Origin: Oscillospiraceae bacterium Zagget6
GTDB lineage: Bacteria; Bacillota; Clostridia; Oscillospirales; Oscillospiraceae
Direction of reading: 5' to 3'
Length of the DNA stretch: 58,958 bases
Assembly: GCA_001941075.1 (NCBI GenBank)
Contig: MSHH01000080.1
Span: 1 to 58,958, forward strand
Shown in pieces: positions 36,951 through 52,284 of the stretch (position 1 is its first letter; each line of letters starts with the position of its first letter). Under the pieces are notes generated by a model. The model had not been told where the DNA came from. It saw only the letters and a program-made list of their open reading frames with translations, and made no database searches. The translations under genes were made by a program, and so were the position numbers.

Positions 36951-37991
36951 TCAACTGAGCAGGGTATACCCCGCGTCTGCGGTGACGGCGTCCTCCAGCC
37001 CTGCGGTGACGTAGATTTCGCTGTCGGTAGTGATGAACACGGCCTGAAACTCGTCGCTGTGGGCCTGCCAGTAGGCGGTCCCTTCCTCCAGGCCCATGAT
37101 GAACAGGGCGGTGGAGAGGGCGTCGCCCAATGCGCCGTCGTCGGTGACGATGGTGACGGAGGTCAGGCCGCTGTCCGCCGGGTAGCCGGTGGCGGGGTCG
37201 ATGATGTGGTGGTAGGTCTCGCCGGTGGTCTCGTCGGTGAAGTACCGCTCGTAGGAGCCGGAGGTGATGACCGCCTGGTCCTCCACCTCGATGACCGCGA
37301 CAATGGCCCCCTCGCTGCCCACCGGGTCCTGAATGCCCACCCGCCAGAGGGAACCGTCGGGCTTGGCGCCCAGGCAGTGGATATTGCCGCCCAGGGAGAC
37401 CATGGCGGAGGTCACGCCCATCTCCTTGAACAGCTCCATAATGCGCTGGGAGGTGTAGCCCTTGGCGATGCCGCCCAGGTCGATGGACTGCCCTTCGCCC
37501 AGGGTGACGGTGGAAGTGGCGGCGTCATAGGTGACGCGGTCCGCGCCCACCAGGGCCAGAGCGGATCGCAGGTCGGACGCCTCCGGCACCTGATAGTCCT
37601 GGGTGGTGAAGCCCCACAGCTCCATCAGGGGGTAAACGGTGATGTCGAAAGCCCCGCCGGTGCTGTCATAAATCTCCAAAGCCCGCTCGATGAGGGCGGC
37701 GGTGTCCTCCGAGAGGACGGCGGTCCCGTCCCGGTTCAGCTGAGAGACCTCGCTGTCCTCGCTGCCCACAGACCACAGGGCCTCCAACCGCTGAATTTCC
37801 TCCACGGCGGCGTTCAGGGCCTCGTCCCGGTAACTGCCGTAGGCGGTCAGGGTCATGAAGGTGTCCATGGCGTCCAGGTACTGTGTGCTGGACTCCGCCG
37901 CCTCTGGGTCAGGCTCCACAGTCCCGGCGGCGCAGCCGGTCAGCAGCAGCGCAGAGAGCAGGCAGCAGAGGAAACAAGATAGCTTTTTCAT
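36951..37991 (-). CDS. apbE: FAD:protein FMN transferase, lipoprotein
   Basis: Attaches FMN from FAD covalently to Thr/Ser in target motifs outside the membrane. The 346-residue protein has a lipobox (LLLTGCAAG, Cys at residue 20) and the ApbE fold: DAMDTFMTLTAYG at the start, SQLNRDG, AFDITVYPLMELWGF, the flavin-binding SIDLGGIAKGY, SLGGNIHCLG, and HHIIDPATGYPADSG with the Mg-binding region and GDALSTALFIMG. Its substrates are evidently encoded across the MerR gene: three exported flavoproteins and the RnfD-RnfG fusion, all with flavinylation motifs. It lies alone on the minus strand. Confidence 0.95.
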   Translation of the reverse strand: MKKLSCFLCCLLSALLLTGCAAGTVEPDPEAAESSTQYLDAMDTFMTLTAYGSYRDEALNAAVEEIQRLEALWSVGSEDSEVSQLNRDGTAVLSEDTAALIERALEIYDSTGGAFDITVYPLMELWGFTTQDYQVPEASDLRSALALVGADRVTYDAATSTVTLGEGQSIDLGGIAKGYTSQRIMELFKEMGVTSAMVSLGGNIHCLGAKPDGSLWRVGIQDPVGSEGAIVAVIEVEDQAVITSGSYERYFTDETTGETYHHIIDPATGYPADSGLTSVTIVTDDGALGDALSTALFIMGLEEGTAYWQAHSDEFQAVFITTDSEIYVTAGLEDAVTADAGYTLLS

Positions 37992-38113
37992 GGTCGTTCT
38001 CCCTCGGTTTGGCGGTCACGCATTGTAAAAAGCCCCTTTTTCGCAATATTTCCCCAATTTAACAAAAAATGAAGGAGAAAACGAGAAAAAGACGGCAAAT
38101 TTTACAAAGCCTA

Positions 38114-38144
38114 TTGACCTGAGTGTTACACCCAACTTTATAAT
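38114..38144 (+). promoter_or_regulatory. MerR-type promoter (19-bp spacer) between apbE and merR
   Basis: TTGACC (38114-38119) and a perfect TATAAT (38139-38144) are 19 bases apart, the long spacer typical of MerR-controlled promoters. The spacer contains the palindrome GTGTTACAC. It points into the 3' end of the merR gene as antisense. On the opposite strand GTAACA and TAAAAT are also 19 bases apart and could drive apbE. Confidence 0.5.
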
Positions 38145-38161
38145 ATAGTTATTAGTGATAT

Positions 38162-39013
38162 TTATAATGGTGACGTGGGGGATTCTGTGCGAAGGGGAAT
38201 ACTCATCTGGCAATAATAGAAATATTTCCCGTCCTCCGGCGCTTCAAACAGATGCCGAACCAAAATCGGCCCCGCAGCCTTCTGGCCCTGGGCCTCCAGC
38301 GCGGCCAACGCCGGAGGGAGCATCTTCTGAATCTCTTCCTCATCGCTGCCTGCCTTGCCGCCGATGGTGGAGCGGGGGATCTTCAGGTAGTAGCAAAAGA
38401 CGCGGCAGGCGGGAAAACGCTCCACCTGACTGCCTCCCAGCTCCAGCAGCCGGGCCAGCTCCGCCGAAGCGGTGAAGCCAAAAATCACCTTTCCCTCCCG
38501 AATCAGCCTGCAATATTCCACCGCAGGCGTGGCTTCGGTCCAGTCGGACATGGCGGCGGTGTCCTCCGGAGAGAGGGGCAGGAACTCGGTCATCCCGGAG
38601 AAGGGGAAAAAGACCAGGTCGGGCCGCTCCTCTATGTCCCAGCTGCCCACCAGCGTCCCTTCGATTGCCTTCTGCTGGCAGGTGTGGACGAAGCGCAGCC
38701 CCTCCAGCGCCATGCTCCGCAACAGCTGCTCCCGCTCCAGCGCGGCGATGCGCAGGGCGTTCTCGTCAGTGTATTCCTCCAGGGTGGCCTCGTTGAGGAG
38801 GTGGCCGATCTCCCGCAGGGAGTAGCCCAGGTTTTGCAGCTTCTTGCTGATGAGGATGGCTGGGTACTGCGAGTGGTAGTAGTAACGGTACTGGTTGCCC
38901 TCCTCCCGCCGGGAGGTGAGGATGCCCTGCTTTTCGTAGTGCTTCACCAGGTCCCGGGTGACGCCCAGCCGTTGGGAAAATTCGCCCATGCGATATGTTT
39001 TTTGCTTTGCCAT
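38162..39013 (-). CDS. MerR-family transcriptional regulator
   Basis: A 283-residue regulator. The N-terminal winged helix-turn-helix (residues 5-70) reads YRMGEFSQRLGVTRDLVKHYE, in parts YRMGEFSQRLGV and DLVKHYEKQGIL, followed by the usual dimerisation helix (ALEREQLLRSM). The C-terminal 160 residues look like a ligand-binding domain of the GyrI-like kind, with Trp-, Phe- and Arg-rich strands. The start at ATG 39013 follows AGGAG; the 61 extra upstream codons are rejected. It is divergent from the tat-flavoprotein-rnf genes and convergent with a 19-bp-spacer promoter, so it is the best candidate regulator of this respiratory locus. Effector unknown. Confidence 0.88.
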   Translation of the reverse strand: MAKQKTYRMGEFSQRLGVTRDLVKHYEKQGILTSRREEGNQYRYYYHSQYPAILISKKLQNLGYSLREIGHLLNEATLEEYTDENALRIAALEREQLLRSMALEGLRFVHTCQQKAIEGTLVGSWDIEERPDLVFFPFSGMTEFLPLSPEDTAAMSDWTEATPAVEYCRLIREGKVIFGFTASAELARLLELGGSQVERFPACRVFCYYLKIPRSTIGGKAGSDEEEIQKMLPPALAALEAQGQKAAGPILVRHLFEAPEDGKYFYYCQMSIPLRTESPTSPL

Positions 39014-39199: not shown

Positions 39200-39703
39200 A
39201 TGAAAATTGGCTTTATGGAGCTGGTGGTCATCTTTATCGTGGCCCTGGTGGTCATCGGGCCGGACAAACTCCCGGAGTTCGCCAAAAAGCTGGGGGCGGG
39301 CCTGCGGGCCTTCCGGGAGGCCACCAACGACCTGACCTCGGAGATCCGGGAGAACGTGGTGGAACCCCTGGAGGAGGCACAGGCCCCCATCCGGGAGGCC
39401 ATGGAGCCTCTGGAAGAGATGGACAGGGAGATCAAAGGCAGCGTCAAAGAGGTGAAAACCTCTCTGAATAACATCGGAAAGCCGAAGAAAAAGACTGTCG
39501 CTGACAAAACGCAGCAGGCCCCTGCCGCCGAAACGCCGGAGACCCCGGCAGCGGAGACGGCGGTTTCGGAACCGGTGCAGGCCCCGGAGACGGAGAGCGT
39601 CTCCCCGGCCCCGGCGCCCGACGCGGCAGAGGGAGCGGATGCAGTTCCCCCGGCGGCGGAGGACGCCACGCTAAACCAAAATAAAGGAGGAGAAACCACA
39701 TGA
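39200..39703 (+). CDS. twin-arginine translocase TatA/TatB-family protein (long)
   Basis: Subunit of the Tat exporter for folded proteins, 167 residues. One membrane segment (residues 6-22, ELVVIFIVALVVIGP), the GP hinge and an amphipathic helix (DKLPEFAKKLGAGLRAFRE). After the helix comes a long acidic, Pro/Ala-rich tail (residues 85-167) more like TatB than TatA. The ATG at 39200 follows AAAGGAG by 9 bases; the 19 extra codons of the open frame are rejected. Its stop overlaps the next start as ATGA. A Tat system beside three Tat substrates suggests a dedicated exporter. Confidence 0.9.
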   Translation: MKIGFMELVVIFIVALVVIGPDKLPEFAKKLGAGLRAFREATNDLTSEIRENVVEPLEEAQAPIREAMEPLEEMDREIKGSVKEVKTSLNNIGKPKKKTVADKTQQAPAAETPETPAAETAVSEPVQAPETESVSPAPAPDAAEGADAVPPAAEDATLNQNKGGETT

Positions 39704-39885
39704 AAATCGGTACAACTGAGCTGATCGTTGTTCTGCTGATCGTAGTGGTCTTGTTTGGCCCCACGCAGATCCCCAAGCTGACCAAAATGCTGGGCAGCAG
39801 CATCAAGAACTTCCGGGACGGCATGAAGGACGAGGACAAGCCCGAACAGGCGGAGGAGAGCAAGCCCCAGGATGAACAGGCGTAA
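39700..39885 (+). CDS. tatA: twin-arginine translocase TatA-family protein (short)
   Basis: A 61-residue minimal TatA: one membrane segment (ELIVVLLIVVVLFGPTQIP) with the canonical FGP hinge, an amphipathic helix (KLTKMLGSSIKNFRDGMKD) and a short charged tail. It overlaps the long TatA/B gene by 4 bases and tatC by 14 bases, so all three are translationally coupled. AAAGGAGGAG precedes the start. The pairing of a long TatB-like and a short TatA protein is more like a three-component Tat system than the minimal TatAC of most Firmicutes. Confidence 0.92.
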   Translation: MKIGTTELIVVLLIVVVLFGPTQIPKLTKMLGSSIKNFRDGMKDEDKPEQAEESKPQDEQA

Positions 39886-40663
39886 GAAAAAAGCCCCGTC
39901 CGTGCCCGACAACGGGGAGATGAGCCTGAGCGGACACCTGAAAGAGCTGCGCAATCGCATCGTTATTTGCGTGGTCTTTCTGGTGGCCGCAGTGCTGGTG
40001 TGTCTGTTCTTCGCCCCCCAGCTGGTGGAGCTGTTCACCGACTTGGGAGAGGACTACGACTACAAGTTCGTCTACATCGCCCCCCAGGAGCTGCTGACGG
40101 TCCAACTGTCCATCGCCGCCATCGGCGGCCTGGTCATCAGCTCCCCCGTGATTTTCTACCACATCTACGCCTTTTGCGCCCCCGGCCTGAAAAAGCGGGA
40201 ACGGCTGTTCTTCCTGCTGGCCGTGGGCTTTGGCGCGGTGTGCTTTTGCGTGGGCGTGCTGTTCGCTTACAAAATCAGCGTCCCCTTCATGCTCTACTTC
40301 TTCATGGATCTGAGCGTGGGGACCGACGTGTCTGCCTCCGTCAGCATCCAGAGCTATGTCAACTTCCTGCTGACGGTGTTCGTGGTGTTCGGCGCAGTGT
40401 TTGAGCTGCCGGTGGTGTCCGTTCTGCTGACCCGCATCGGTCTGCTCAAACCCCAGTGGCTGGCCAAGTCCCGGAAGGTGCTGTTCGTCCTCATCTTCGT
40501 GCTGGCCGCCATCATCACCCCGCCGGACATCCTTTCCCAAATTATGGTAGCTTTTCCCATGATGGCCTTGCTGGAGCTGAGCATCTTCCTGTGCAAAATC
40601 TGCACAAAGGTGTGGCACCTGGACGAGGACGAGGAGGAGGAAGAATCTACCGGAGAAGCGTGA
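39872..40663 (+). CDS. tatC: Sec-independent protein translocase TatC
   Basis: Receptor of the Tat exporter that binds twin-arginine signals; 263 residues with six membrane segments. The TatC N-terminal motif (MSLSGHLKELRNRI) and the conserved SPVIFYHIYAFCAPGLKKRER region (parts SPVIFYHIYAF and PGLKKRER) are clear, as is FELPVV before segment 5. The tail is acidic (EDEEEEES). It overlaps tatA by 14 bases with GGAGGAGAG upstream. The next genes encode proteins with SRRDFIK signals, its probable cargo. Confidence 0.96.
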   Translation: MNRRKKKAPSVPDNGEMSLSGHLKELRNRIVICVVFLVAAVLVCLFFAPQLVELFTDLGEDYDYKFVYIAPQELLTVQLSIAAIGGLVISSPVIFYHIYAFCAPGLKKRERLFFLLAVGFGAVCFCVGVLFAYKISVPFMLYFFMDLSVGTDVSASVSIQSYVNFLLTVFVVFGAVFELPVVSVLLTRIGLLKPQWLAKSRKVLFVLIFVLAAIITPPDILSQIMVAFPMMALLELSIFLCKICTKVWHLDEDEEEEESTGEA

Positions 40664-40762: not shown

Positions 40763-42811
40763 ATGGCCAAAAAACAGCCCATTTCCCGCCGGGACTTCAT
40801 CAAGGGCATGGCGGCAGGCGCAGCCAGCGTCGTGACCCTTGGCGTACTCCAGGCATGTGAAGCCGGAGGCTCCACTACTACCGCGGCCTCGTCTGCCGCT
40901 TCGTCTGCTGCTTCCAGCAGCGGCACCACTGCTGCCAGCTCCATGAGTTACACCCCCGGCACCTACTCCGCCAGCGCCGCCGGTATCGCCAGCGATGTCA
41001 CCGTCACCATGACCTTCGACGAGACCAGCATCACCGATGTGCAAATCGATGTTTCCGGCGAGACCGCCGACATCGGCGGCGCGATTGGCGACGATATGGC
41101 CCAGGCCATTCTGGACGCCCAGTCCTGCGATGTGGACGTGGTCTCCAGCGCCACCGTCACCAGCAACGCCATCAAGACTGCCGCCGCCGATTGTATCTCT
41201 CAGGCCAGCGGCACCACCGTCACCGTCAGCGAAGAAGAGGACAACGGCTCCTCCGACTGGCTGGGCGAAGCCCCCGAAATCTCCGAGGACGAGATCACCG
41301 AGACCCTGGACACCGAGGTCCTGGTAGTTGGCTGCGGCTCCGGCGGCTGGATCACCGCCATGACCGCCGCCGAAGAGGGCGCGAAGGTGCTGGTGGTGGA
41401 GAAGAAGGAGTCTCCCACCGGTCCCCGTGAGGACATCGGCTCCATCAACTCCAAGCTCCAGAAGGAATCCTTCGAGGAGTACCCGGAGTTTGAAATTGAC
41501 AAGATGGAAGCCCTCCAGGACATCGTCCGCTACGGCGCGGGCTATGTGAACTCCGACCTGATCCGCTGCTGGGAGGACAACAGCGGCGAGATGGTGGACT
41601 GGCTGACCGAGCTGCTGGAAGGCACCGGCAACTGGTACATGAGCCTGGAAGGTGGCGTGGGCGACACCAGCGACCCCGGCCGCGACAAGGCTTATGCCAC
41701 TGGTCACAGCCCTCACCTGACCGACGACGCTCCCGAGGACACCACTCTGAACTCCACCTTCCAGGCCCACTGTGACGACCTGGGTGTGGAGTGGAAACTG
41801 TCCACCGCTCTGGTCAAGCTGGAGCAGGACGACAGCGGCAAGGTCACCGGCATCATTGCTCAGGATCTGAGCGACAACCACTATGTTCGCGTCAACGCCA
41901 GCAAGGGCGTTATCATGTGTACCGGCGGCTACGCCACCAACACCGAAATGATGAAGGCGCTCCAGCCCCAGACCCTGGAGATGAAGGTCAACTATTCTAA
42001 GGGTTCCACCTGCGACGGCTCCGGCATCAAGGCCATGCTGTGGGCGGGGGCCAAGTTCAGCCCGGTCCACGCCTCCATGATGTTCAACCGCTGCTGCGTC
42101 AAGCCAGAAGACACTGCCGGATACGAGACCACCGGCGAATGGTTCTGGTTCGGTGAGCAGCCCTTCCTGAAAGTCAATCTGAACGGCGAGCGGTTCTGCA
42201 ACGAGTCCGGCCCCTACGAGTTCATGCTCCACTCCATGTGGATGCAGCCCTATCACACCTACTGCGACATCTTCGACGCCAACTGTGAGCAGTACGCCGA
42301 GCAGTTCGACGAAGTGGGCTGCTGCCGCCTGTTCGCCTTCCCCAACGGCGCGCTGTCCAACCGCACCTTTGAGGCTTGCTGGGAGTCCAACGAGGAACTG
42401 ATCGAGGCCGGTTACATCCAGAAGGCTGACACCCTGGAGGAGCTGGCCGAGAAGCTGAACATCCCCGCCGAGACCTTCGTGGCCACCGTGGAGCGCTACA
42501 ACGAGCTGTGCGCCGCCGGTGAGGACACCGATTACGGCAAGGAGACCCACCGCATGACCCCGGTGGACACCGCTCCCTTCTACGGCGTCCGTACCGCTGC
42601 CTGGCACCTGACCACCCTGAGCGGTTGCCTCATCAACACCGATATGCAGGTCATCCAGGAGGATGGCACCCCCATCGAGGGCCTGTACGCCACCGGTGAC
42701 TGCTCCGGCGGCTTCTTCGGCGACACCTATCCCAACCTGTTCACCGGCCTGGCCTGTGGCCGCACTATGACCTTTGGCCGTCGCGCTGCGAAAATCGTCG
42801 CGGCTCTGTGA
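40763..42811 (+). CDS. Tat-exported flavinylated FAD-dependent reductase, lipoprotein (paralog 1)
   Basis: Probable extracellular terminal reductase, 682 residues. Signal: SRRDFIKGMAAGA with lipobox-like VLQAC (Cys32). FMN_bind domain at about 63-147 with flavinylation motif DVVSSAT (FMN on Thr131). FAD_binding_2 domain from about 185 (VLVVGCGSGGW, CTGGYATN, YATGDCSGG). Fumarate reductases have an active-site Arg after NE and another in NRLGG; here the sequences are NESGPYEF and TYPNLFTG, so both are absent, while a His is kept in WHLTTLSG. The acceptor is therefore unlikely to be fumarate. GGGAGG precedes the start. First of three such genes leading into rnf. Cardiac-glycoside and cinnamate-type reductases of gut bacteria are comparable families. 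Confidence 0.9.
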   Translation: MAKKQPISRRDFIKGMAAGAASVVTLGVLQACEAGGSTTTAASSAASSAASSSGTTAASSMSYTPGTYSASAAGIASDVTVTMTFDETSITDVQIDVSGETADIGGAIGDDMAQAILDAQSCDVDVVSSATVTSNAIKTAAADCISQASGTTVTVSEEEDNGSSDWLGEAPEISEDEITETLDTEVLVVGCGSGGWITAMTAAEEGAKVLVVEKKESPTGPREDIGSINSKLQKESFEEYPEFEIDKMEALQDIVRYGAGYVNSDLIRCWEDNSGEMVDWLTELLEGTGNWYMSLEGGVGDTSDPGRDKAYATGHSPHLTDDAPEDTTLNSTFQAHCDDLGVEWKLSTALVKLEQDDSGKVTGIIAQDLSDNHYVRVNASKGVIMCTGGYATNTEMMKALQPQTLEMKVNYSKGSTCDGSGIKAMLWAGAKFSPVHASMMFNRCCVKPEDTAGYETTGEWFWFGEQPFLKVNLNGERFCNESGPYEFMLHSMWMQPYHTYCDIFDANCEQYAEQFDEVGCCRLFAFPNGALSNRTFEACWESNEELIEAGYIQKADTLEELAEKLNIPAETFVATVERYNELCAAGEDTDYGKETHRMTPVDTAPFYGVRTAAWHLTTLSGCLINTDMQVIQEDGTPIEGLYATGDCSGGFFGDTYPNLFTGLACGRTMTFGRRAAKIVAAL

Positions 42812-42891: not shown

Positions 42892-44910
42892 ATGGCAAAT
42901 AAGCCCATTTCCCGCAGAAACTTCCTCAAAGGCATGGCTGCGGGCGCTGTCAGCGTGGCGACGATGGGCGCGCTCGGCGGCAGCGAAATTGCCCTGGCCA
43001 GCGACGCGGACACCAGCGCCGCCAGTGCCTCCGGCTCCCTGACCTACACCCCCGGCACCTACTCCGCCAGTGCCGCCGGTATCGCCAGCGATGTCACCGT
43101 CACCATGACCTTCGACGAGACCAGCATCACCGATGTGCAGATCGACGTTTCCGGCGAGACCGCCGACATCGGCGGCGCGATCGGCGACCAGATGGCTCAG
43201 GCCATTCTGGACGCTCAGTCCTGTGACGTGGACGCGGTTTCCAGCGCCACTGTCACCAGCAACGCCATCAAGACCGCCGCCGCCGACTGTATCTCTCAGG
43301 CCAGCGGCACCACCGTCACCGTCAGCGAGACGGAGGACAGCGATTCCTCTGACTGGCTGGGCGAGGCCCCCGAAATCTCCGAGGACGAAATCACCGAGAC
43401 CCTGGACACCGAGGTCCTGGTGGTGGGCTGCGGCTCCGGCGGCTGGATCGCCGCTATGACCGCCGCCGAAGAGGGCGCGAAGGTGCTGGTGGTGGAGAAG
43501 CGCGAGTCTCCCACCGGTCCCCGTGAGGACATCGGCTCCATCAACTCCAAGCTCCAGCAGGAATCCTTTGAGGAGTACCCGGAGTTTGAAATCGACAAGA
43601 TGGAAGCCCTTCAGGACATCGTCCGCTATGGCTCCGGCTACGTCAACTCCGACCTGATCCGCTGCTGGGAGGACAACAGCGGCGAAATGGTGGACTGGCT
43701 GACCGAGTTGCTGGAGGACACCGGCAACTGGTACATGAGCCTGGAAGGTGGCGTGGGCGACACCAGCGACCCCGGCCGCGACAAGGCTTATGCCACCGGC
43801 CACAGCCCCCACACCACCGACGACGCTCCCGAGGACACCACTCTCAACTCCACCTTCCAGGCCCACTGCGATGACCTGGGCGTGGAGTGGAAGCTGTCCA
43901 CCGCGCTGGTCAAGCTGGAGCAGGACGACAGCGGCAAGGTCACCGGCATCATCGCCCAGGACCAGAACGACAGCCACTATGTCCGCGTCAACGCCAGCAA
44001 GGGCGTTATCATGTGTACCGGCGGCTACGCCACCAACACCGAGATGATGAAGGCTCTCCAGCCCCAAACCCTTGAAATGAAGGTGAATTTCTCCGGCACT
44101 GGTTCCACCTGCGACGGCTCCGGCATCAAGGCCATGCTGTGGGCAGGGGCCAAGTTCAGCCCGGTCCACGCCTCCATGCTCTTCAACCGCTGCTGCGTCA
44201 AGCCCGATGAGACCGCTGGATACGAGACCACTGGTCAGTGGTTCTGGTTCGGTGAGCAGCCCTTCCTGAAGGTCAACCTGAACGGCGAGCGGTTCTGCAA
44301 CGAGTCCGGTCCCTACGAGTTTATGCTCCACTCCATGTGGATGCAGCCCTACCACACCTACTGCGACATCTTTGACGCTAACAATAAGGAGTATGCCGAA
44401 CAGTTCGACGAGGTGGGCTGCTGCCGCCTGTTCGCCTTCCCCAACGGTGCGCTTTCCAATATGACCTATGATTATATTTGGTCTGTAAACGAGGGATTAA
44501 TTGAAGATGGCTATATCCAGAAGGCTGACACCCTGGAGGAGCTGGCTGAGAAGCTGAACATCCCCGCTGACACCTTCGTGACCACCGTGGAGCGCTACAA
44601 CGAGATGTGTGCAGCGGGCGAGGACACTGACTACGGCAAGGAGAAGCACCGCTTGACCCCTGTGGACACCGCTCCCTTCTACGGCGTCCGTACCGCTGGC
44701 TGCCATCTGACCACCCTGAGCGGCTGCCTCATCAACACCAACATGCAGGTCATCCAGGAGGACGGCACCCCCATCGAGGGCCTGTACGCCACCGGCGACT
44801 GCTCCGGCGGTTTCTTCGGCAACACCTACCCCAACCTGTTCACCGGCCTGGCCTGTGGACGCACCATGACCTTTGCCCGCCGTGCGGCCCAGATCGTGGC
44901 GGCCCTGTAA
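42892..44910 (+). CDS. Tat-exported flavinylated FAD-dependent reductase (paralog 2)
   Basis: A close paralog of the gene before it, 672 residues, matching it over nearly the whole length. Tat signal SRRNFLKGMAAGA, but no lipobox Cys; instead ALASDAD suggests signal peptidase I cleavage, so it may be released from the membrane. FMN_bind domain with DAVSSAT, then FAD_binding_2 (VLVVGCGSGGW). It shares the altered active-site sequences of paralog 1 (NESGPYEF, TYPNLFTG). Positions 44455-44516 form a distinct A+T-rich patch where the protein also differs (NMTYDYIWSVNEGLIEDGY). The start ATG 42892 follows AAAGGAAGAG. Confidence 0.9.
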   Translation: MANKPISRRNFLKGMAAGAVSVATMGALGGSEIALASDADTSAASASGSLTYTPGTYSASAAGIASDVTVTMTFDETSITDVQIDVSGETADIGGAIGDQMAQAILDAQSCDVDAVSSATVTSNAIKTAAADCISQASGTTVTVSETEDSDSSDWLGEAPEISEDEITETLDTEVLVVGCGSGGWIAAMTAAEEGAKVLVVEKRESPTGPREDIGSINSKLQQESFEEYPEFEIDKMEALQDIVRYGSGYVNSDLIRCWEDNSGEMVDWLTELLEDTGNWYMSLEGGVGDTSDPGRDKAYATGHSPHTTDDAPEDTTLNSTFQAHCDDLGVEWKLSTALVKLEQDDSGKVTGIIAQDQNDSHYVRVNASKGVIMCTGGYATNTEMMKALQPQTLEMKVNFSGTGSTCDGSGIKAMLWAGAKFSPVHASMLFNRCCVKPDETAGYETTGQWFWFGEQPFLKVNLNGERFCNESGPYEFMLHSMWMQPYHTYCDIFDANNKEYAEQFDEVGCCRLFAFPNGALSNMTYDYIWSVNEGLIEDGYIQKADTLEELAEKLNIPADTFVTTVERYNEMCAAGEDTDYGKEKHRLTPVDTAPFYGVRTAGCHLTTLSGCLINTNMQVIQEDGTPIEGLYATGDCSGGFFGNTYPNLFTGLACGRTMTFARRAAQIVAAL

Positions 44911-45145: not shown

Positions 45146-47248
45146 ATGGCAAAACAACCCATTTCCCGCAGAGACTTCATCAAGGGCATGGCTGCTGGCG
45201 CGGCCAGCGTAGCCACGCTGGGCATCCTCAACGCCTGTGAGTACTCTACCTCCAGCAGCACCGCCGCCGCCAGTACCGGCGACACCAGCGCCGCTGCGAC
45301 CGCCGCCAGCTCCGGCGGGTACACCCCCGGCACCTATTCCGCCACCGCCACCGGCATTGGCGAGGTCACCGTCACCATGACCTTCGACGAGACCAGCATC
45401 ACCGATGTGCAGATCGACGTCTCCAACGAGACCGCCGACATCGGCGGGGCCATCGGCGAGGATATGGCCGCCGCCATTCTGGAGGCCCAGTCCGCCGACA
45501 TCGACGGCGTTTCCGGCGCGACCCTGACCAGCAACGCCATTCGCACCGCCGCCGCCGACTGTATCTCCCAGGCCCAGGGCACCGCCACTGCCGCCGCCGA
45601 GGAAACATCTTCCTCCTCCAGCGACGACTGGCTGGGCGAAGAACCCGACATCACCGACGACGACTGCTCCGAGACTTTGGAGTGCGAGGTGCTGGTCATT
45701 GGCTGCGGCGTAGCCGGCGTTGCCGCTGTCCGCGCCGCCGCTGAGGAGGGCGCGCAGGTCATCGCCATCGAGAAGGGCGACAGCCCCCAGTGCCGCAGCG
45801 GTGAATACGCCGTCATCAACGGCAAGGTGCAGGCCAACTGGAACCGGGATTACTGGACCAAGGAGCAAATCAACTCCATCTGCGACTTCCATGTGCAGGA
45901 ATCCTGCTACAAGGTCAAGCAGGCGATTGTCAACAAGTGGGCCAACAACATCGGCGACGTGTTCGACTGGTGGGTGGAGCCCAACACCAGCCTGTACATC
46001 GCGCCGGAGACCCGCTCCCCAATTCCCGATGAGAGCGCGGATAACTTCCTGATTCCCATCTTCTACCCGCTGCCTGAGGCTTACGACTGGACCCAGGAGC
46101 GGTTCCCCTGCTATCCCACCTCCGTGGAGTTCAAGCCCGACCAGAGCGTCAACTTCAACGCCAACATGGACGCGGCTGTGGCCACCGGCAACGTGGACGC
46201 CCACTATGGCTGCTTCGCCGAGAAGCTCATCATGGAGGACGGCAAGTGCGTGGGCGCGTACATCCGCGACGCCAACGAGGGGACCTATTTCCGTGTCAAC
46301 GCCAGCAAGGGCGTCATCCTCGCCACCGGCGACTACTCCCAGAACGAGGCCATGGTGCAGCACTTCTGCCCCGATGTCATCGAGAACGGCATCACCCGGA
46401 TGTTCACCAACGTGGACGTGGAGGGCAACTTCACCAACATGGGCGACGGCATCAAGCTGGGCATGTGGGCCGGAGCGCAGGTGCAGCAGTCCCACGCGCC
46501 GATGATCCACCACATGGGCGGCGGCGCGGACCTGGAGGGCGTCGGCGTCATGGGCATCGCCGGGTTCCTGAATCTGGACCTGAACGGCAAGCGCTTCATG
46601 AACGAGGACCTGCCCGGCCAGCAGATCGAGAATCAGATCGAGCTGCAAAAGGACCGCAAGTCCTGGCAGATTTTCGACGCCAACTGGCCGGAGCAGCTGC
46701 CCTATATGCCCGCAGAGCACGGCGGCGCCTGCTACTATGAGGACTACGCCAGCGAGGACGAGGCCCCTGCCAACAACGCCACTTACCGGAACTACAAGAG
46801 TCCCTATCAGCTGGAAGCCGCTGTGGAGGATGGCCGCTGTGTCACTGCCAACACCCTGGAGGAGCTGGTGGCCCTGATGTATCCCGACGACGAGGACGCT
46901 CAGGAAACTGCGCTGGAGTCCATCGAGCGGTACAACGAACTGGCGGAGGAAGGCTTCGACGAGGACTTCGGCAAGACCGCCAGCCGGATGTGGCCGCTGG
47001 AGAACCCGCCCTATTACGCCGACCAGTTCGAGACCGCCCTGCTGCTGGTCATCATCGGCGGCCTGGAATCGGACGAAAACTGCCACACCTATGACGAAAA
47101 CCGCAACATTATCCCCGGCCTGTATGTGGCCGGCAACATTCAGGGCAGCCGTTTTGCCGCTGAATATCCCATCACGCTGAAAGGCGTGTCCCACTCTATG
47201 GCTATGTATTATGGCTACGTAGCCGGAAAGGAAGTTGCCTCCCTGTAA
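45146..47248 (+). CDS. Tat-exported flavinylated FAD-dependent reductase, lipoprotein (paralog 3, divergent)
   Basis: A third extracellular flavoprotein, 700 residues. Tat signal SRRDFIKGMAAGAAS and lipobox-like ILNAC (Cys31). The FMN_bind domain is nearly the same as in paralogs 1 and 2, with motif DGVSGAT. The FAD_binding_2 domain (VLVIGCGVAGVAAVRAA) is only distantly related to theirs (QCRSGEYAVING; LATGDYSQNEAM; FMNEDLPGQQIENQ). The fumarate-type catalytic Arg after NE is absent here too. The C-terminal YVAGNIQGSRFAAEYP differs from the paralogs. So the same electron-receiving module carries a different substrate domain. AAAGGAAGG precedes the start; rnfC follows after 39 bases. Confidence 0.9.
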   Translation: MAKQPISRRDFIKGMAAGAASVATLGILNACEYSTSSSTAAASTGDTSAAATAASSGGYTPGTYSATATGIGEVTVTMTFDETSITDVQIDVSNETADIGGAIGEDMAAAILEAQSADIDGVSGATLTSNAIRTAAADCISQAQGTATAAAEETSSSSSDDWLGEEPDITDDDCSETLECEVLVIGCGVAGVAAVRAAAEEGAQVIAIEKGDSPQCRSGEYAVINGKVQANWNRDYWTKEQINSICDFHVQESCYKVKQAIVNKWANNIGDVFDWWVEPNTSLYIAPETRSPIPDESADNFLIPIFYPLPEAYDWTQERFPCYPTSVEFKPDQSVNFNANMDAAVATGNVDAHYGCFAEKLIMEDGKCVGAYIRDANEGTYFRVNASKGVILATGDYSQNEAMVQHFCPDVIENGITRMFTNVDVEGNFTNMGDGIKLGMWAGAQVQQSHAPMIHHMGGGADLEGVGVMGIAGFLNLDLNGKRFMNEDLPGQQIENQIELQKDRKSWQIFDANWPEQLPYMPAEHGGACYYEDYASEDEAPANNATYRNYKSPYQLEAAVEDGRCVTANTLEELVALMYPDDEDAQETALESIERYNELAEEGFDEDFGKTASRMWPLENPPYYADQFETALLLVIIGGLESDENCHTYDENRNIIPGLYVAGNIQGSRFAAEYPITLKGVSHSMAMYYGYVAGKEVASL

Positions 47249-47287: not shown

Positions 47288-48622
47288 ATGCCAAAACTGA
47301 CATTCCGGGGTGGCGTGCGCTTAAAGGGCTATAAAGAACTGAGCGCAAATGTGCCGATTGTGTTCCATCAGGCCAAGGGAGAACTGGTGTTCCCCCTGAA
47401 CCAGCACGTTGGCAAGCCCGCCATTCCCATTGTAAAACGAGGCGAAGCTGTCCTGGCAGGGCAGATCATCGCCAAAGCGGACGGATTTGAGTCCGCAAAC
47501 ATCATCACCTCCGGCTCCGGCAAGGTCAAGGCCATCGAATCCCGCATGACCTCCGCCGGCGTCATGGCCCCATGTATCGTCATCGACAACGACGGACAGT
47601 ACAACCTGGCCCCCGGCGTGGGAGAGCCTTGCGACTACACCAAGCTGACCAACGAGGAGATCGTGGCCAAGGTCCAGGCTGCGGGCGTGGTCGGTCTGGG
47701 CGGCGCGGCCACCCCCACCCACATCAAGCTCTGCCCGGAGCAGCCGGAGGAAATCGACCACCTCATCGCCAACGGCGCGGAGTGCGAGCCGTACATCACC
47801 TGTGACGACCGGCTCATGCAGGAGCAGCCCGGCTGGATCGTCAGCGGACTGAAGGTCCTGATGCAGATGTTCCCCGCCGCCGACGCGGTCATCGCCATTC
47901 AGGACGACAAGCCCGCCGCCATCGCCGCCATGCAAAAGGCCATCGAGGGCGAGCGGAAGATGTCCGTCATGGTCCTCAAGACCAAGTACCCCCAGGGCAG
48001 CGAGCGCAACCTGGTCCACGCTGTCACCAGACGGAAAATGACCTCGGACGACACCCCCGCCAACCTGGGCTGCATCGTCAACAACGTGACCACCCTGGCC
48101 GCTATCTATCACGCCGTCTGCCTGAACGAGCCGCTGATGGAGAAGGGCTTCACCGTCACCGGCGACGCGGTGGCGGAGCCTCACAACTTCCTGGTGAAGA
48201 TCGGTACCTCCTGTAGTGAAATTCTGGAGGCCGCCGGTGGTCTGAAAGCTGAGCCGAAAAAGGTGCTCATCGGCGGCCCCATGATGGGCATGGCCATCAC
48301 CGACCTGGACATCCCCATCGCCAAGAGCTACAACGCCCTGGTCTGCATGACCCACGACCCGGTGGAGGACTGCGAGATCAAGGAGACCGCCTGCATCCGC
48401 TGCGGGCGGTGCGTCCGGGCCTGCCCGGTGGGGCTGGTGCCCCAGATGATGGCTCAGGCCGCCACCGCCAAGGAGTACGAGCGCTATGTGAAGCTCCACG
48501 GCCTGGACTGCATTGGCTGCGGCTGCTGCGCCTACATCTGCCCGGCCAAGCGCCCGCTGACCCAGATGTTCAAACAAACCAAGCCCATCGTGCTGGACCT
48601 CCAGCGCCAGGGCAAGCTGTGA
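47288..48622 (+). CDS. rnfC: Rnf electron transport complex subunit C
   Basis: Peripheral NADH/FMN and Fe-S subunit of Rnf, 444 residues. The N-terminus carries the RnfC barrel-sandwich (GGVRLKGYKELSANVPIV). The Rossmann-type NADH/FMN region includes GLGGAATPTHIKL and NGAECEPYITCDDRL. Two 4Fe-4S motifs close the protein: CIRCGRCVRACPVGL and CIGCGCCAYICPAKRP. It starts the rnf gene block directly after the third flavoprotein gene, with 13 bases to the next gene. Confidence 0.96.
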   Translation: MPKLTFRGGVRLKGYKELSANVPIVFHQAKGELVFPLNQHVGKPAIPIVKRGEAVLAGQIIAKADGFESANIITSGSGKVKAIESRMTSAGVMAPCIVIDNDGQYNLAPGVGEPCDYTKLTNEEIVAKVQAAGVVGLGGAATPTHIKLCPEQPEEIDHLIANGAECEPYITCDDRLMQEQPGWIVSGLKVLMQMFPAADAVIAIQDDKPAAIAAMQKAIEGERKMSVMVLKTKYPQGSERNLVHAVTRRKMTSDDTPANLGCIVNNVTTLAAIYHAVCLNEPLMEKGFTVTGDAVAEPHNFLVKIGTSCSEILEAAGGLKAEPKKVLIGGPMMGMAITDLDIPIAKSYNALVCMTHDPVEDCEIKETACIRCGRCVRACPVGLVPQMMAQAATAKEYERYVKLHGLDCIGCGCCAYICPAKRPLTQMFKQTKPIVLDLQRQGKL

Positions 48623-48635: not shown

Positions 48636-50183
48636 ATGGAAAAACTGCTTAACGTCTCCTCCTCTCCCCACCTGAGAGAGCCTTATCTGTCCACCGGCCA
48701 CGCCATGTACGACGTGGTTCTGGCCCTGATGCCCGTCACCCTCTTTGGTATCTGGCATTTCGGCTTCCACGCCTTCATGATTCTGGCGGTCAGTGTGCTG
48801 ACAGCGGTGATGACGGAGTTCATCTTCGACTACATCACCCACCGGGAGAACACCGTCAAAGACGGCTCCGCCGTTGTCACCGGCCTGATGCTGGGCCTGT
48901 GCCTGTCCCCCACGGTGCCGCTGTACATCCCCTATCTGGGCAGCCTGTTCGCCATTTTGTTCGTCAAGTGCGTGTTCGGCGGCCTGGGCCAGAACTTTAT
49001 GAACCCCGCTCTGGCGGGCCGCTGCTTCCTGCTGATTTCCTTCAGCACCGTGATGTCTGACTTCGGCATCGACGGCGTCTCCAGCGCCACCCCTCTGGCG
49101 GTGCTGGCCAACGGCGGCACGGTGAACATCACCGAGATGTTCCTGGGCTTCACCGACGGCACCATCGGCGTCAGCTGCGCGGCCATGCTGGTGGGCGCGG
49201 TCTACCTGCTCATCGTGGGCGGCATCACCTGGCACATCCCCGGCTCCTACCTGCTGAGCTTCGTGATTTTCATGGGTCTCTTCGGCGGGCAGGGCTTCGA
49301 CCCCCTGTTCCTGCTGGCGGAGCTGTGCGGCGGCGGCCTGATGTTCGGCGCGCTGTTCATGGCCACCGACCCCGTCACCAGCCCCATCACCTCCCGTGGA
49401 CAAATCTACTACGGTGTGGTGCTGGGCCTGCTGACCGCCATTTTCCGCACCTATGGCAGCTCCACCGAGAGCGTCAGCTACGCCATTATCCTGGGCAACC
49501 TGGTGGTCCCGCTGATTGACCGGATCTCCATTCCCAAGCCCTTCGGCGTGGGCGACAACGCCAAGAAGCCCAAGCCCAAGATCCCCAAGGCCGCAGTTGC
49601 CCTGACGGTCATCACCCTGCTGGCTGGTCTGGCCCTGGGCGGTGTCAACACCCTGACCGCCGAGACCATCGAGCAGCAGGCCATCGCCGCCAACGCCGCC
49701 GCCTATTCGGAGGTCGTGCCGCTGGCAGAAGAGTTCGGCTACGACGACGCGATTTCCGCCAACGTGGAAGAGTTCGCGGAAGATGTCTATGGCCGTGGCA
49801 CCTACGGCAATGTCTACATCAATGACGTGGTGGTCGGCACCGATTCCTCCGGCAACGTGGTTGGCTACGGCATCAACGTGACCACCGCCGACGGCTTCGA
49901 CGGCAACATCACCATGACGGTGGGCATCGACACCGACGGCACCATCCTGGGCATCGCCTTCACCGAGCTGAACGAGACTGCGGGCATGGGTATGCGCGTG
50001 GATGAGGACAGCTTTAAGGAGCAGTTCGTGGGCGTCCAGGTGGAATCCTTCACCCTGAACAAGAACGGCGGCTCCACGGCGGACGATGAAATCGACTCCG
50101 TCTCCGGCGCTTCCACCACCTCCGGCGCGGTGGTCAACGCGGTCAATGCCGCCATCGACTTCTACGCCAACTACATTCAGTGA
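48636..50183 (+). CDS. RnfD-RnfG fusion, flavinylated electron transport subunit
   Basis: A single 515-residue protein that joins two subunits normally made separately. Residues 1-310 are RnfD: about nine membrane segments, N-terminus SSSPHLREP, GSAVVTGLMLGLCLSP, and the covalent FMN site DGVSSATPLA. A Lys/Pro linker (KKPKPKIPK, about 310-318) leads to one more membrane segment and an RnfG-type FMN_bind domain (about 370-510) with the flavinylation motif DSVSGAST near the end. So it should carry two covalent FMNs, both attached by ApbE. GGAGGG precedes the start. The normal rnfD and rnfG genes are absent, so this is the functional form. Confidence 0.93.
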   Translation: MEKLLNVSSSPHLREPYLSTGHAMYDVVLALMPVTLFGIWHFGFHAFMILAVSVLTAVMTEFIFDYITHRENTVKDGSAVVTGLMLGLCLSPTVPLYIPYLGSLFAILFVKCVFGGLGQNFMNPALAGRCFLLISFSTVMSDFGIDGVSSATPLAVLANGGTVNITEMFLGFTDGTIGVSCAAMLVGAVYLLIVGGITWHIPGSYLLSFVIFMGLFGGQGFDPLFLLAELCGGGLMFGALFMATDPVTSPITSRGQIYYGVVLGLLTAIFRTYGSSTESVSYAIILGNLVVPLIDRISIPKPFGVGDNAKKPKPKIPKAAVALTVITLLAGLALGGVNTLTAETIEQQAIAANAAAYSEVVPLAEEFGYDDAISANVEEFAEDVYGRGTYGNVYINDVVVGTDSSGNVVGYGINVTTADGFDGNITMTVGIDTDGTILGIAFTELNETAGMGMRVDEDSFKEQFVGVQVESFTLNKNGGSTADDEIDSVSGASTTSGAVVNAVNAAIDFYANYIQ

Positions 50184-50197
50184 GGAGGGGAATATTG

Positions 50198-50899
50198 ATG
50201 AACAAATATACAGAGCGTATTTATAACGGCGTCGTCAAGGAAAACCCCACCTTTATCATGATGCTGGGCATGTGCCCCACCCTGGCGGTCACCACCTCGG
50301 CCATCAACGGCTTCGGCATGGGCGTCTCCACCCTGGCGGTGCTGATCCTCTCCAACCTGATCATCTCCGCCCTGCGGAAGGTCATTCCAGACCAGGTCCG
50401 GCTGCCGGCGTATATCGTCATTGTGGCCTCGCTGGTGACGGTGATCCAGCTGCTGATCCAGGCGTACATTCCCTTCCTCTACGACGCGCTGGGTATTTAC
50501 ATCCCGCTGATCGTGGTGAACTGCATCATCCTGGGCCGGGCGGAGGCTTACGCCGCCAAGAACCCGCCCCTGCTGTCCGTCATGGACGGCCTGGGCATGG
50601 GCCTCGGCTTCACCCTGGCCCTGACCCTCATCGGCATCGTCCGCGAGCTGTTCGGCGCGGGGACCCTGTTCGGCGTGCAGGTCATGCCCGGCTTCTATGA
50701 GCCGGTGGCCATCCTGACCAAGGCGCCCGGCGCGTTCCTGGTGCTGGCCATCATCATCGCCATTATGAACGGCGCGCAGATCGACACCGCCGCCAACGAC
50801 AAGGTGGAGAGCTGCGACGGCTGCTGCGCCACCTGCGGCAAGCCCTGCGCCACTCCCAAGCAGGAGACCGCTGAGACAAAGGAGGGTGAAACCGTATGA
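50198..50899 (+). CDS. rnfE: Rnf electron transport complex subunit E
   Basis: An integral subunit of Rnf with six membrane segments, 233 residues. RnfE/NqrD features: KENPTFIMMLGMCPTLAVTTSA, in parts KENPTFIMMLG and CPTLAVTTSA, with the conserved membrane Cys that holds Fe-S; GRAEAYAAKN; LGFTLALTLIGIVRELFG. The C-terminal 35 residues are unusual: five Cys in CDGCCATCGKPC, followed by a Glu/Thr-rich tail, not part of the normal family. The ATG 50198 follows GAGGAGGGG. Its stop overlaps rnfA as ATGA. Confidence 0.93.
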   Translation: MNKYTERIYNGVVKENPTFIMMLGMCPTLAVTTSAINGFGMGVSTLAVLILSNLIISALRKVIPDQVRLPAYIVIVASLVTVIQLLIQAYIPFLYDALGIYIPLIVVNCIILGRAEAYAAKNPPLLSVMDGLGMGLGFTLALTLIGIVRELFGAGTLFGVQVMPGFYEPVAILTKAPGAFLVLAIIIAIMNGAQIDTAANDKVESCDGCCATCGKPCATPKQETAETKEGETV

Positions 50900-51474
50900 C
50901 ATCGCTGTTTATGATTGTGATTACCGCCGCCTTCGTCGATAACGTGGTGCTGAACCAGTTCCTGGGGCTTTGCTCCTTCCTGGGCGTTTCCAAGCAGATC
51001 GAGACGGCGGGCAGCCTGGGCGCTGCGGTCATCTTCGTCATTACCATCGCCTCCGGCGTGGCCAACCTGCTCTATGACTTTGTACTGGACCCCCTGGGCC
51101 TGAGCTATTTGCAGACCATCGTGTTCATCCTGGTCATCGCGGCCCTGGTGCAGATGGTGGAGATGTTCCTGAAAAAGGCGGTCCCCGCCCTCCACAGTGC
51201 GCTGGGCATCTACCTGCCCCTCATCACCACCAACTGCGCGGTGCTGGGCGTTGCGCTGAACAACGTCACCGACGGCTACAACTTCATCCAGAGCGTTCTG
51301 GCCGGTTTTGGCACCGCCGTTGGCTACACCATCGCCATCGTCGTCCTGGCCGGTATCCGGGAGCGGCTGGCGTACAACGAAAACATCCCCAAGGCGTTCC
51401 AGGGCGCACCCATCGTGCTGCTCAGCGCCGCGCTGATGGCCATTGCGTTCTGCGGCTTCAGCGGCCTGGCTTGA
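50896..51474 (+). CDS. rnfA: Rnf electron transport complex subunit A
   Basis: An integral subunit paired with RnfE, 192 residues with six membrane segments, normal length. The family motifs VDNVVLNQFLGLCSFLGVSK (in parts VDNVVLNQFLG and CSFLGVSK), with the conserved Cys that shares an Fe-S cluster with RnfE, and LITTNCAVLGVALNN are clear. It is translationally coupled to rnfE by ATGA and followed by rnfB after 18 bases. Confidence 0.96.
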   Translation: MTSLFMIVITAAFVDNVVLNQFLGLCSFLGVSKQIETAGSLGAAVIFVITIASGVANLLYDFVLDPLGLSYLQTIVFILVIAALVQMVEMFLKKAVPALHSALGIYLPLITTNCAVLGVALNNVTDGYNFIQSVLAGFGTAVGYTIAIVVLAGIRERLAYNENIPKAFQGAPIVLLSAALMAIAFCGFSGLA

Positions 51475-51492
51475 GAAAGGGAGGACTGAACG

Positions 51493-52284
51493 ATGACATT
51501 GATTGTTTCCAGTATCCTGATTCTCGCGGTCATTGGCCTGCTGGTGGGCCTGATGCTGGTGTTCGTCAGCGAGACCTTCCACGTGGAGGTGGACGAGCGG
51601 GAAGCCGCTGTCCGGGAGTGTCTGCCCGGCAACAACTGCGGCGGCTGCGGCTACGCCGGCTGTGACGCGGTGGCGGCTGCCATCGTCAAGGGCGAGGCCC
51701 CGGTCAACGCCTGTCCGGTGGGCGGCGCGCCTGTGGCGGATAAGATCTCCGAGATCATGGGCATCAGCGCCGACAGCACCGAGAAAATGGTCGCCTTTGT
51801 CAAGTGCGCGGGTACCTGCGACGTGATGAAGGTCAAGTGCAACTACTTCGGCATCGAGAGCTGCGAGGCGGCAGGCTCCCTGCCCGGCAAGGGCGTTCGC
51901 GCCTGTCAGCAGGGCTGCCTGGGCTATGGCAGCTGCGTGAAAGCCTGTCAGTTCGACGCCATTCACGTGGTCAACGGCGTGGCCGTGGTGGACCGCTCCA
52001 AGTGCGTGGCCTGCGGCAGCTGCGTCAAAGCCTGTCCCCAGAACCTCATTGAGCTGGTGCCGGACCGCAGCACCTACGCCGTCCGGTGCAGCAGCACCGA
52101 GAAGGGCAAGACGGTCAAGGCCCTGTGCGACGTGGGCTGCCTGGGCTGCGGCCTGTGCGTCCGCCAGTGTGAGCAGGGCGCTATCACCCTGAAGGACAAC
52201 GTCGCTCACATCGACTACAACAAGTGCATTGGCTGCGGCAAGTGCGCGGAGAAGTGCCCGGCGAAAATCATCCGCCTGCGGTAA
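51493..52284 (+). CDS. rnfB: Rnf electron transport complex subunit B
   Basis: The ferredoxin-accepting subunit, 263 residues. One N-terminal membrane segment (residues 3-26), the Fe-S motif of RnfB (CLPGNNCGGCGYAGC), a central Cys domain (CAGTCDVMKVKC), and ferredoxin-like 4Fe-4S motifs: GCLGYGSCVKACQF, CVACGSCVKACP, CLGCGLCVRQCEQ and CIGCGKCAEKCP. Several clusters are therefore expected. It ends the operon; a terminator follows. It makes reduced ferredoxin the likely electron source of the pathway. Confidence 0.96.
   Translation: MTLIVSSILILAVIGLLVGLMLVFVSETFHVEVDEREAAVRECLPGNNCGGCGYAGCDAVAAAIVKGEAPVNACPVGGAPVADKISEIMGISADSTEKMVAFVKCAGTCDVMKVKCNYFGIESCEAAGSLPGKGVRACQQGCLGYGSCVKACQFDAIHVVNGVAVVDRSKCVACGSCVKACPQNLIELVPDRSTYAVRCSSTEKGKTVKALCDVGCLGCGLCVRQCEQGAITLKDNVAHIDYNKCIGCGKCAEKCPAKIIRLR

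Follow-up and report, generated by a model that had tools for sequence, protein, structure and literature searches.

Among the described systems closest to the locus reported here are the Rnf complexes of Acetobacterium woodii and Clostridium tetanomorphum. Mutants of RnfB and of the RnfA/E cluster have lost ferredoxin-dependent NAD+ reduction, and Na+ passes through RnfA/E and not RnfD (Kumar 2025, PMC11889175). Exported flavoenzymes that join an FMN_bind to an FAD_binding_2 domain are represented by Listeria FrdA and Shewanella UrdA, which are described as receiving electrons from components encoded elsewhere (PMC8238504); such flavinylated reductases are widespread, with 3070 fumarate-reductase-like proteins featuring an FMN-binding domain counted across 1236 genomes in that one survey. 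In Methanosarcina acetivorans an added redox protein, the multihaem cytochrome MmcA, working with methanophenazine, extends Rnf to outside acceptors (PMC12174285), and outward electron flow has also been proposed for two-subunit Nqr/Rnf-like systems and for clusters with a multiply flavinylated RnfG, where an RnfD-type protein is fused to an NqrF-type domain or RnfG carries extra FMN domains (PMC8238504, PMC11334425). A duplicated rnf operon that shed rnfB has in turn been put forward as the ancestor of Na+-NQR (PMC4014512), and two sources describe its RnfC counterpart as free of redox cofactors and its membrane [2Fe-2S] cluster as kept (PMC12174285, PMC4014512).

The window analysed here is a 58,958-nucleotide stretch of the genome of Oscillospiraceae bacterium Zagget6. 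An earlier note, made from the sequence, had placed in positions 36951-52284 genes for ApbE, a MerR regulator, TatA/B-TatA-TatC, three exported flavoproteins and rnfC to rnfB, and all of them are found there (Table 1), with family matches bearing out the proposed Tat signal, FMN_bind and FAD_binding_2 architecture of the flavoproteins. Likely true starts, read from the sequence, are those tabulated for MerR, TatA/B and reductase 2, in place of 39196, 39143 and 42844, respectively. From tatA/B to rnfB the genes share a single strand, as the note had it, with reductases 2 and 3 separated by the widest gap, 235 bases, and ApbE and MerR lie on the opposite one. Terminator-like matches in 36500-53200 number 18, not far above the 12.6 (sd 3.5) of shuffled sequences, a small excess that neither favours nor counts against a single tatA/B-to-rnfB transcript. 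ApbE has a lipoprotein-like signal (LLTGC), MerR occupies the same place in relatives with DNA reaching that far (e.g., L021, L024-L027, L029-L031), and the small TatA likewise sits between TatA/B and TatC in relatives.

Table 1. Features of the Tat-reductase-Rnf block, in window coordinates.
Feature	Position	Strand	Evidence
ApbE, FMN transferase	36951..37991	-	PF02424, E=7.8e-93
MerR-type regulator	38162..39013	-	MerR_1 PF13411, E=6.2e-13
TatA/B-type subunit	39200..39703	+	TatA_B_E PF02416, E=2.7e-17
Putative small TatA, 61 aa	39700..39885	+	ORF
TatC	39872..40663	+	PF00902, E=1e-60
Reductase 1: Tat signal, FMN_bind, FAD_binding_2	40763..42811	+	Pfam match
Reductase 2: Tat signal, FMN_bind, FAD_binding_2	42892..44910	+	Pfam match
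Reductase 3: Tat signal, FMN_bind, FAD_binding_2	45146..47248	+	Pfam match
rnfC, NADH/FMN subunit	47288..48622	+	TIGR01945, E=3e-149
rnfD-rnfG fusion	48636..50183	+	PF03116, residues 7-304; PF04205, residues 420-507
rnfE	50180..50902	+	TIGR01948, E=6.5e-74
rnfA	50896..51474	+	TIGR01943, E=1.3e-75
rnfB, ferredoxin-side polyferredoxin subunit	51493..52284	+	TIGR01944, E=2.9e-30, over cut-off

The Rnf of the window is complete. TIGR01945, 01946, 01948, 01943 and 01944 all score over their NCBIfam cut-offs and all six subunits are present, with rnfD and rnfG fused into one gene whose 515-aa product joins NQR2_RnfD_RnfE to FMN_bind; its RnfG part scores 96.9 bits against an NCBIfam cut-off of 102, and PF04205 is over cut-off in the fused protein. 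RnfC has eight [4Fe-4S] cysteines, RnfA and RnfE each have both of theirs, making up the four of the [2Fe-2S] cluster, and RnfE ends in a cysteine-rich C-terminal tail. The RnfD part features the flavinylation residue T152 together with N123 and D245, and the RnfG part the motif SGAS. The window shares with the A. woodii and C. tetanomorphum complexes the six subunits, the RnfA/E cysteines and the RnfD flavinylation and riboflavin residues, but differs from them in the RnfD-RnfG fusion, in the exported reductases and Tat genes of the same block, and in having one related clade without RnfB and the RnfA cluster cysteines. Relative to Listeria FrdA and Shewanella UrdA, it encodes the presumed donor, Rnf, alongside the reductases; where M. 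acetivorans employs a cytochrome, the window system employs flavin domains; and, unlike the Nqr/Rnf-like systems, it keeps RnfC, RnfD and RnfG all together, with RnfB lost in relatives.

All three reductases combine an export signal with FMN_bind and FAD_binding_2, the combination that defines flavinylated fumarate-reductase-like proteins. Their TAT_signal matches (E 3.4e-5 to 1.3e-4) are over the Pfam cut-off in one scan, and that of reductase 1 is just under it in another. Sequence identity is 90% between reductases 1 and 2 and 43% between reductases 1 and 3; a cysteine occupies the would-be lipobox position in reductases 1 and 3 and not in reductase 2. As flavinylation motif, reductase 3 has the canonical SGAT, whereas reductases 1 and 2 depart from it with SSAT. 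As judged from these motifs, FMN would be covalently attached to the motif Ser/Thr of the reductases and of RnfG.

What the reductases reduce was approached through the active site of reductase 1. The catalytic residues of fumarate reductase are R402, H504, R544 and H365 (Shewanella numbering). In a profile alignment made on sequence, reductase 1 presents Tyr485, Leu616, Leu659 and Phe441 at these respective positions, a further difference from FrdA and UrdA, and the fumarate-like acceptor suggested by PDB matches was rejected for this enzyme because the aligned positions differ. The acceptor is thus probably not fumarate-like, the fumarate/urocanate-type comparison having covered reductase 1. 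Among the NCBIfam matches listed for reductase 1, the top model is vinyl phenol reductase VprA (NF053717), and that assignment was set aside at 217.5 bits, far below the 600-bit cut-off. A 103-aa reductase fragment from about residue 420 had no match in the PDB. The departure from the fumarate reductase active site, together with best PDB matches of the C-terminal part of reductase 1 to ketosteroid dehydrogenases, would also fit exported dehydrogenases that oxidise an outside substrate and send electrons through RnfG to NAD+. We consider this very unlikely, since, as a matter of general chemistry, NAD+ is poorly suited to take up electrons from the oxidation of an alkane to an alkene. The enzymes are more readily viewed as reductases, as are the characterised FMN_bind members named in the flavinylation survey (PMC8238504).

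The neighbourhood search for reductase genes beside Rnf that the earlier note had called for yielded 29 loci of relatives in which the reductase has 3 kb or more of flanking DNA in each direction; both Tat and Rnf genes are present in 19 of them, Tat alone in 2 and neither in 8. One relative, Clostridiales bacterium NK3B98 (L035), combines ApbE, TatA-type genes and the reductase with a complete Rnf of the fused-D/G form. The Tat-Rnf-reductase linkage is kept across differing gene orders (L038, L040, L066), and no Tat or reductase match was found in any of 20 unfused Rnf control loci (6.7-20 kb examined in each), which were taken from high-scoring rows and not at random, and two of which, L158 and L162, proved RnfB-less. 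Closer inspection of the loci with neither partner was limited to the two from Gordonibacter, whose homologues are without FMN_bind and downstream of an ORF with three CxxCH motifs. The rnfD-rnfG fusion was considered as a marker of reductase linkage and discarded: fused RnfDG occurs without a reductase in L139-L148, so fusion does not itself mark the Rnf-reductase link, and a further fused case, L183, lies outside the main fused clade.

In the window's genome (G000, 76% complete), TatC has one match, the Tat signals over cut-off are 4/4 on FMN_bind reductases, and the sole Rnf found is the complete one. A second ApbE, encoded on contig C6 next to a protein that has several FMN_bind domains, could also serve the reductases. 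This pair, the 2 loci with Tat alone, the 8 with neither partner, and the Listeria and Shewanella relatives that draw on electron-transport components encoded elsewhere (PMC8238504) leave room for reductases that are respiratory yet fed by another donor, be it an NADH dehydrogenase working through an exogenous quinone or the C6 system, with Rnf next door as a fellow client for flavinylation. A quinone donor is, however, not supported by the UbiA-family prenyltransferase, present in 1/24 genomes against 14/14 controls, the exception being G003, the genome of the RnfB-less locus L051; quinones supplied by neighbours could still play this part. We regard such a separately fed system as unlikely.

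One related clade has, adjoining the reductase, an Rnf without RnfB, and the RnfA of this complex has lost cysteines belonging to the RnfA/E [2Fe-2S] cluster. Across the loci scored (RnfB present at no less than 60 bits within 6.5 kb of RnfD, labels assigned by hand), all four RnfA/E cysteines are found in 51/51 loci with RnfB, none of which has lost cysteines or RnfE/A, whereas cysteines are lost or RnfE/A absent in 16/17 loci without it, L181 being the exception with all four. None of these 17 combines RnfB with an intact RnfA/E cluster site as canonical Rnf does, and they fall outside the 2021 survey's definition of RNF because that survey went by RnfB presence (PMC8238504). What they retain is the outward half: the RnfD T/N/D cofactor residues in 17/17, Ser/Thr at the RnfG flavinylation position in 17/17, and the eight RnfC cluster cysteines in 20/20, a count that adds L044, L182 and L187, which are cut by contig ends. 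This speaks against Na+-NQR, as these relatives retain the RnfC cluster cysteines and have lost the A/E cluster site; on the NqrF side the comparison relies on ORFs read in L051 and partly in L138, L158 and L162.

The counts depend on several choices. The 20 candidate RnfB-less loci were picked by eye where an RnfC row had no RnfB row nearby on the contig, leaving out G720:C53, G744:C249, G752:C109 and G751:C337, and L158 and L179 were not credited with RnfB on their weaker ferredoxin-type matches (at most 37 bits). Ten loci with 11 bases or fewer beyond the last rnf gene, 9 of which passed the score filter, were classed as RnfB unknown and stand outside the 51 and 17 (L022, L032, L044, L060, L061, L144, L175, L182, L187 and L188). 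L135-L137 were left out of tree and counts, L135 and L137 repeating, at identical lengths, the contigs of L026 and L030, and L136, for which no duplicate was identified, having RnfB and all four cysteines. Counted loci are not all from separate genomes (L146 and L148 share one), and the tree, obtained by a quick search, has L183 and L185 on long branches. Long RnfC-like proteins (L170, L172-L174, L176-L178, L180) were dropped as RnfB-less candidates, with no RnfD/G adjoining.

Eight reductase-linked RnfB-less loci form one clade within the main fused-RnfDG clade; L138 also belongs to it, but its reductase is a different one and no Tat genes were found there. RnfE keeps both cysteines in 6/8 of the reductase-linked loci. 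The divergence of RnfE and RnfA in the eight (24-36% identity), along with the L181 exception and sources that are mostly draft MAGs, might hint at assembly or pseudogene artefacts and at a window with an ordinary Rnf beside unrelated reductases. That is barely credible: eight separate MAG loci share the structure in a single clade, 7 with at least 1.1 kb beyond RnfA, and their RnfC cysteines and the checked RnfD and RnfG residues are preserved. Each of the eight genomes has a second RnfC, and the second Rnf locus is canonical in all six where it was read (L081-L086). Common dependence on ApbE leaves unexplained why the Rnf next to the reductase would lose RnfB and RnfA cysteines when the canonical copy at another site in these six genomes stays intact, which argues against the separately fed system. 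RnfB loss is not a general mark of the window's system, as the subunit is retained in the window and in its nearest relatives; because the window's own Rnf is complete, the co-loss argument reaches it by kinship.

Relatives that have shed the ferredoxin half of the complex and kept the outward half suggest that the pump feeds electrons to exported flavin enzymes, and the block is probably best explained as encoding an Rnf branch with its end point outside the cell. The route from Rnf over membrane FMN to exported FMN that the earlier note had put forward gains support from the conserved linkage and its absence from all 20 unfused controls, from the one TatC, the Tat signals and the scarcity of UbiA, and from the loss in relatives of exactly the ferredoxin-side parts of the reductase-adjoining Rnf. 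Most plausibly, Rnf passes electrons through its RnfD and RnfG flavins to the exported reductases, with a detachable ferredoxin/Na+ arm. We propose that TatABC would export FAD-loaded reductases and ApbE would attach FMN to their FMN_bind domains, to RnfG and to RnfD. Electrons from ferredoxin would enter through RnfB and then the RnfA/E cluster, where the A. woodii model places Na+ pumping, and those from NADH through RnfC and RnfD, both reaching the extracytosolic RnfG/RnfD flavins and, from there, the reductase FMN, its FAD and finally a small unsaturated acceptor. With the sole Rnf found in the window species being complete, it would serve both ferredoxin:NAD+ exchange and the outward branch; in the related clade the second Rnf copy may have become an NADH:exported-reductase conduit only, devoid of the ferredoxin arm.

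By a modest margin, we favour a modular view of Rnf, in which the ferredoxin/Na+ arm appears to have gone at least three times from Rnf copies in one bacterial family, on a tree that counts changes and not their direction, leaving an RnfC-RnfD-RnfG NADH conduit to extracytosolic flavoproteins, in one clade the Tat-exported reductases. If true, this conduit would join Rnf and Nqr as a third type of complex. It would also be a present-day parallel to the loss of rnfB that has been postulated as a stage on the way to Nqr, with the opposite outcome. The block names a candidate donor, amenable to knock-out, for flavinylated reductases in anaerobes without quinones or cytochromes. The RnfB-less relatives resemble a natural subunit-deletion series that predicts which half of Rnf faces outside, and provide a test case for NADH oxidation via RnfC-RnfD-RnfG without the Na+-coupled RnfA/E step.

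The gene list of the earlier note (ApbE, a MerR regulator, Tat components, three flavoproteins and Rnf) was borne out in full, with all of these genes found in the block (see table) and rnfD and rnfG joined into a single fused protein of 515 aa. Each flavoprotein (reductases 1, 2 and 3, in gene order) carries a twin-arginine signal, FMN_bind and FAD_binding_2; reductase 1 shares 90% identity with reductase 2 and 43% with reductase 3. Searches of the draft window genome (1.98 Mb, 76% complete) returned one TatC, one RnfD-family protein and two ApbE, and all four Tat signals above the Pfam cut-off belong to FMN_bind reductases, namely the three in the block plus one more at the end of contig C29. 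A second flavin locus, on contig C6 and with ApbE, encodes a protein of 910 aa that carries several FMN_bind domains, with further FMN_bind matches in a 172-aa frame (a small one) and a 1583-aa frame, and is possibly a multi-flavin extracellular electron path. ABC transporter genes border the block left and right, and the left set also adjoins it in two relatives' loci, L021 and L075.

Features of the window, its genome (G000) and a related locus
Feature	Sequence	Position	Strand
ApbE, MerR regulator	window	in block 36951-52284	minus
TatA/B, TatA, TatC, three flavoproteins, rnfC, rnfD-rnfG, rnfE, rnfA, rnfB	window	in block 36951-52284	plus
RnfE	window	50180-50902	plus
Left ABC set (ABC_sub_bind/BPD_transp_2/ABC_tran)	window	33493-36638	
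Right ABC set (Peripla_BP_4/BPD_transp_2)	window	52784-55380	
Second flavin locus (L079)	G000, contig C6	18000-37000	
Fourth Tat-signal FMN_bind reductase (L080)	G000, contig C29, close to contig end	near 41389-41793	
RnfB-less fused Rnf and different reductase	L138	5688-11924	

A scan with reductase 1 yielded 58 loci, mostly from Clostridia drafts, whose titles in many cases mention rumen or gut; one (L078) fell under the reductase threshold, leaving 57, among which Rnf is found in 30 and Tat genes in 31, many loci ending early at contig ends. The proposed linkage also held in these relatives: among the 29 loci with at least 3 kb either side of the reductase, 19 have both Tat and Rnf, two Tat only and eight neither, the partners being kept while gene order differs (e.g., L038, L040, L066). 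Twenty control Rnf loci in which rnfD and rnfG are separate genes, drawn from high-scoring rows of an order-wide search, were all without a match to Tat genes or the reductase across the 6.7-20 kb examined per locus. Few genomes carry the rnfD-rnfG fusion (15 of 300 in a family sample, at E up to 1e-120), and in ten fused loci (L139-L148), some ending early at contig ends, no reductase was found. The component parts of the block are of known kinds; for the Rnf-reductase-Tat block, and equally for RnfB-less Rnf loci, no description was found in the open-access literature searched, a scope outside which most subscription papers and supplementary tables fall.

The best alignments of reductase 1 are to flavocytochrome c fumarate reductases, urocanate reductase and ketosteroid dehydrogenases; its top NCBIfam model, vinyl phenol reductase, lies far below cut-off. 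At the four positions of the fumarate reductase active site, sequence alignment places Tyr, Leu, Leu and Phe in reductase 1, and with low confidence we suggest that the acceptor of the reductase may be a non-dicarboxylate unsaturated compound. As to the donor, quinone synthesis requires a UbiA-family prenyltransferase, which was detected in 1 of 24 genomes against 14 of 14 controls; no match was found in the window genome or in three same-genus genomes 98-100% complete, and the sole match comes from G003, the genome that carries RnfB-less locus L051. The reductases may nevertheless be supplied by quinones acquired from neighbours; with the UbiA family in only 1 of 24 genomes, Rnf is the obvious membrane donor. 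Reductases of this type in Listeria and Shewanella are said to rely on electron-transport components encoded elsewhere (PMC8238504). The same paper reports a flavin/cytochrome swap for this class, as the Gordonibacter homologues show: their catalytic domain is 57-58% identical by alignment, has no FMN_bind match and is preceded by a three-CxxCH ORF. Three Coriobacteriia loci (L059, L062, L063) each encode a homologue of reductase 1 whose match has no FMN_bind and which is preceded by an ORF bearing three CxxCH motifs.

Eight reductase-linked loci have no RnfB match (L044, which stops at a contig end, L046, L051, L052, L067, L068, L070 and L071). Compared with the window, their RnfC and fused RnfDG are 49-54% identical and their RnfE/RnfA 24-36%. 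The first RnfA cluster cysteine is missing in all eight and the second also in six; both RnfE cysteines are kept in six, one being lost in L046 and one in L068. The next sizeable probable gene past RnfA in L051 lies on the opposite strand and resembles TspO. A second RnfC above cut-off occurs in all eight genomes, whereas the five genomes searched that carry a complete reductase-linked Rnf (G011-G015) have a single RnfC each. For six of the eight the second locus was read (L081-L086): rnfD and rnfG are separate genes there, RnfB and all four cysteines are present, and neither reductase nor Tat was found in the 13-16 kb examined per locus; in the remaining two (G006, G008) no RnfB above cut-off was found. 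The window RnfE has a cysteine-rich C-terminal tail, CDGCCATCGKPC, whose cysteine columns are filled in 18 RnfB-containing loci and not in eight RnfB-less ones.

For a wider sample, 101 family genomes were searched for RnfC and RnfB, 20 RnfC places seemingly without RnfB close by were added, and the table was rebuilt with profiles. All four RnfA/E cysteines accompany RnfB in 51/51 loci; of 17 loci with RnfB absent and room downstream, 12 miss at least one cysteine (including L183, also without RnfE), four (L162, L169, L171, L179; ApbE-RnfC-RnfD-RnfG) lack both RnfE and RnfA, and one is intact. This lone exception to co-loss, L181, reads rnfCDGEA with all four cysteines and no RnfB match nearby, and its genome (99% complete) gave none at E up to 1e-12. 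The RnfD residues for the covalent-FMN Thr and riboflavin contacts, as well as an RnfG motif ending in Ser or Thr, are present in 51/51 loci with RnfB and 17/17 without; the eight cluster cysteines of RnfC are retained in 20/20 RnfB-less loci (the 17 plus L044, L182 and L187), and its NADH/FMN motif is recognisable except in L185 and L187. In a 78-row RnfD tree the RnfB label requires four changes, at least three of them at branches with good support. One clade (SH-aLRT 97), nested within the main fused clade (40 rows, SH-aLRT 99), unites the reductase-linked RnfB-less loci with L138 and with L044 and L061, whose DNA stops within 11 bases of the last rnf gene.

Several loci stand apart. In L138 the RnfB-less fused Rnf lies beside a reductase of another kind, which has two FMN_bind domains, and a search for Tat genes found none; L182, cut by a contig end, is a similar minimal ApbE-RnfC-RnfD-RnfG locus without RnfE, RnfA or RnfB; and in L162 a 160-aa frame with no Pfam match follows rnfG. 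RnfC-like proteins in frames of 650-810 aa occur at L170, L172, L173, L174, L176, L177, L178 and L180, with no other Rnf subunit found in the DNA examined, and that of L172 adjoins a divergent FAD_binding_2-type protein.

A 2021 survey scored RNF via RnfB (PMC8238504). A 2014 model of NQR origin invokes rnf duplication, rnfB loss and RnfC turning non-functional (PMC4014512); the RnfB-less loci described here share the loss of rnfB but retain RnfC. According to the A. woodii structure study, electrons pass from RnfB via the RnfA/E cluster, RnfG and RnfD to RnfC, cluster and RnfB mutations abolish ferredoxin-dependent NAD+ reduction, and Na+ is routed through RnfA/E, not RnfD (PMC11889175). Where RnfB and the A/E cluster are lost, the ferredoxin arm would therefore be gone and, on the A. 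woodii model, the pump too. RnfC, RnfD and RnfG in such loci would still connect NADH with the outside. If the reductases draw electrons from RnfG/RnfD, one would expect such loss to fall on the Rnf copy beside them while another copy in the genome stays intact, the pattern seen here. We consider an electron route from Rnf to the reductases probable. For the window, whose single known Rnf is complete, ferredoxin and NADH are both possible inputs.
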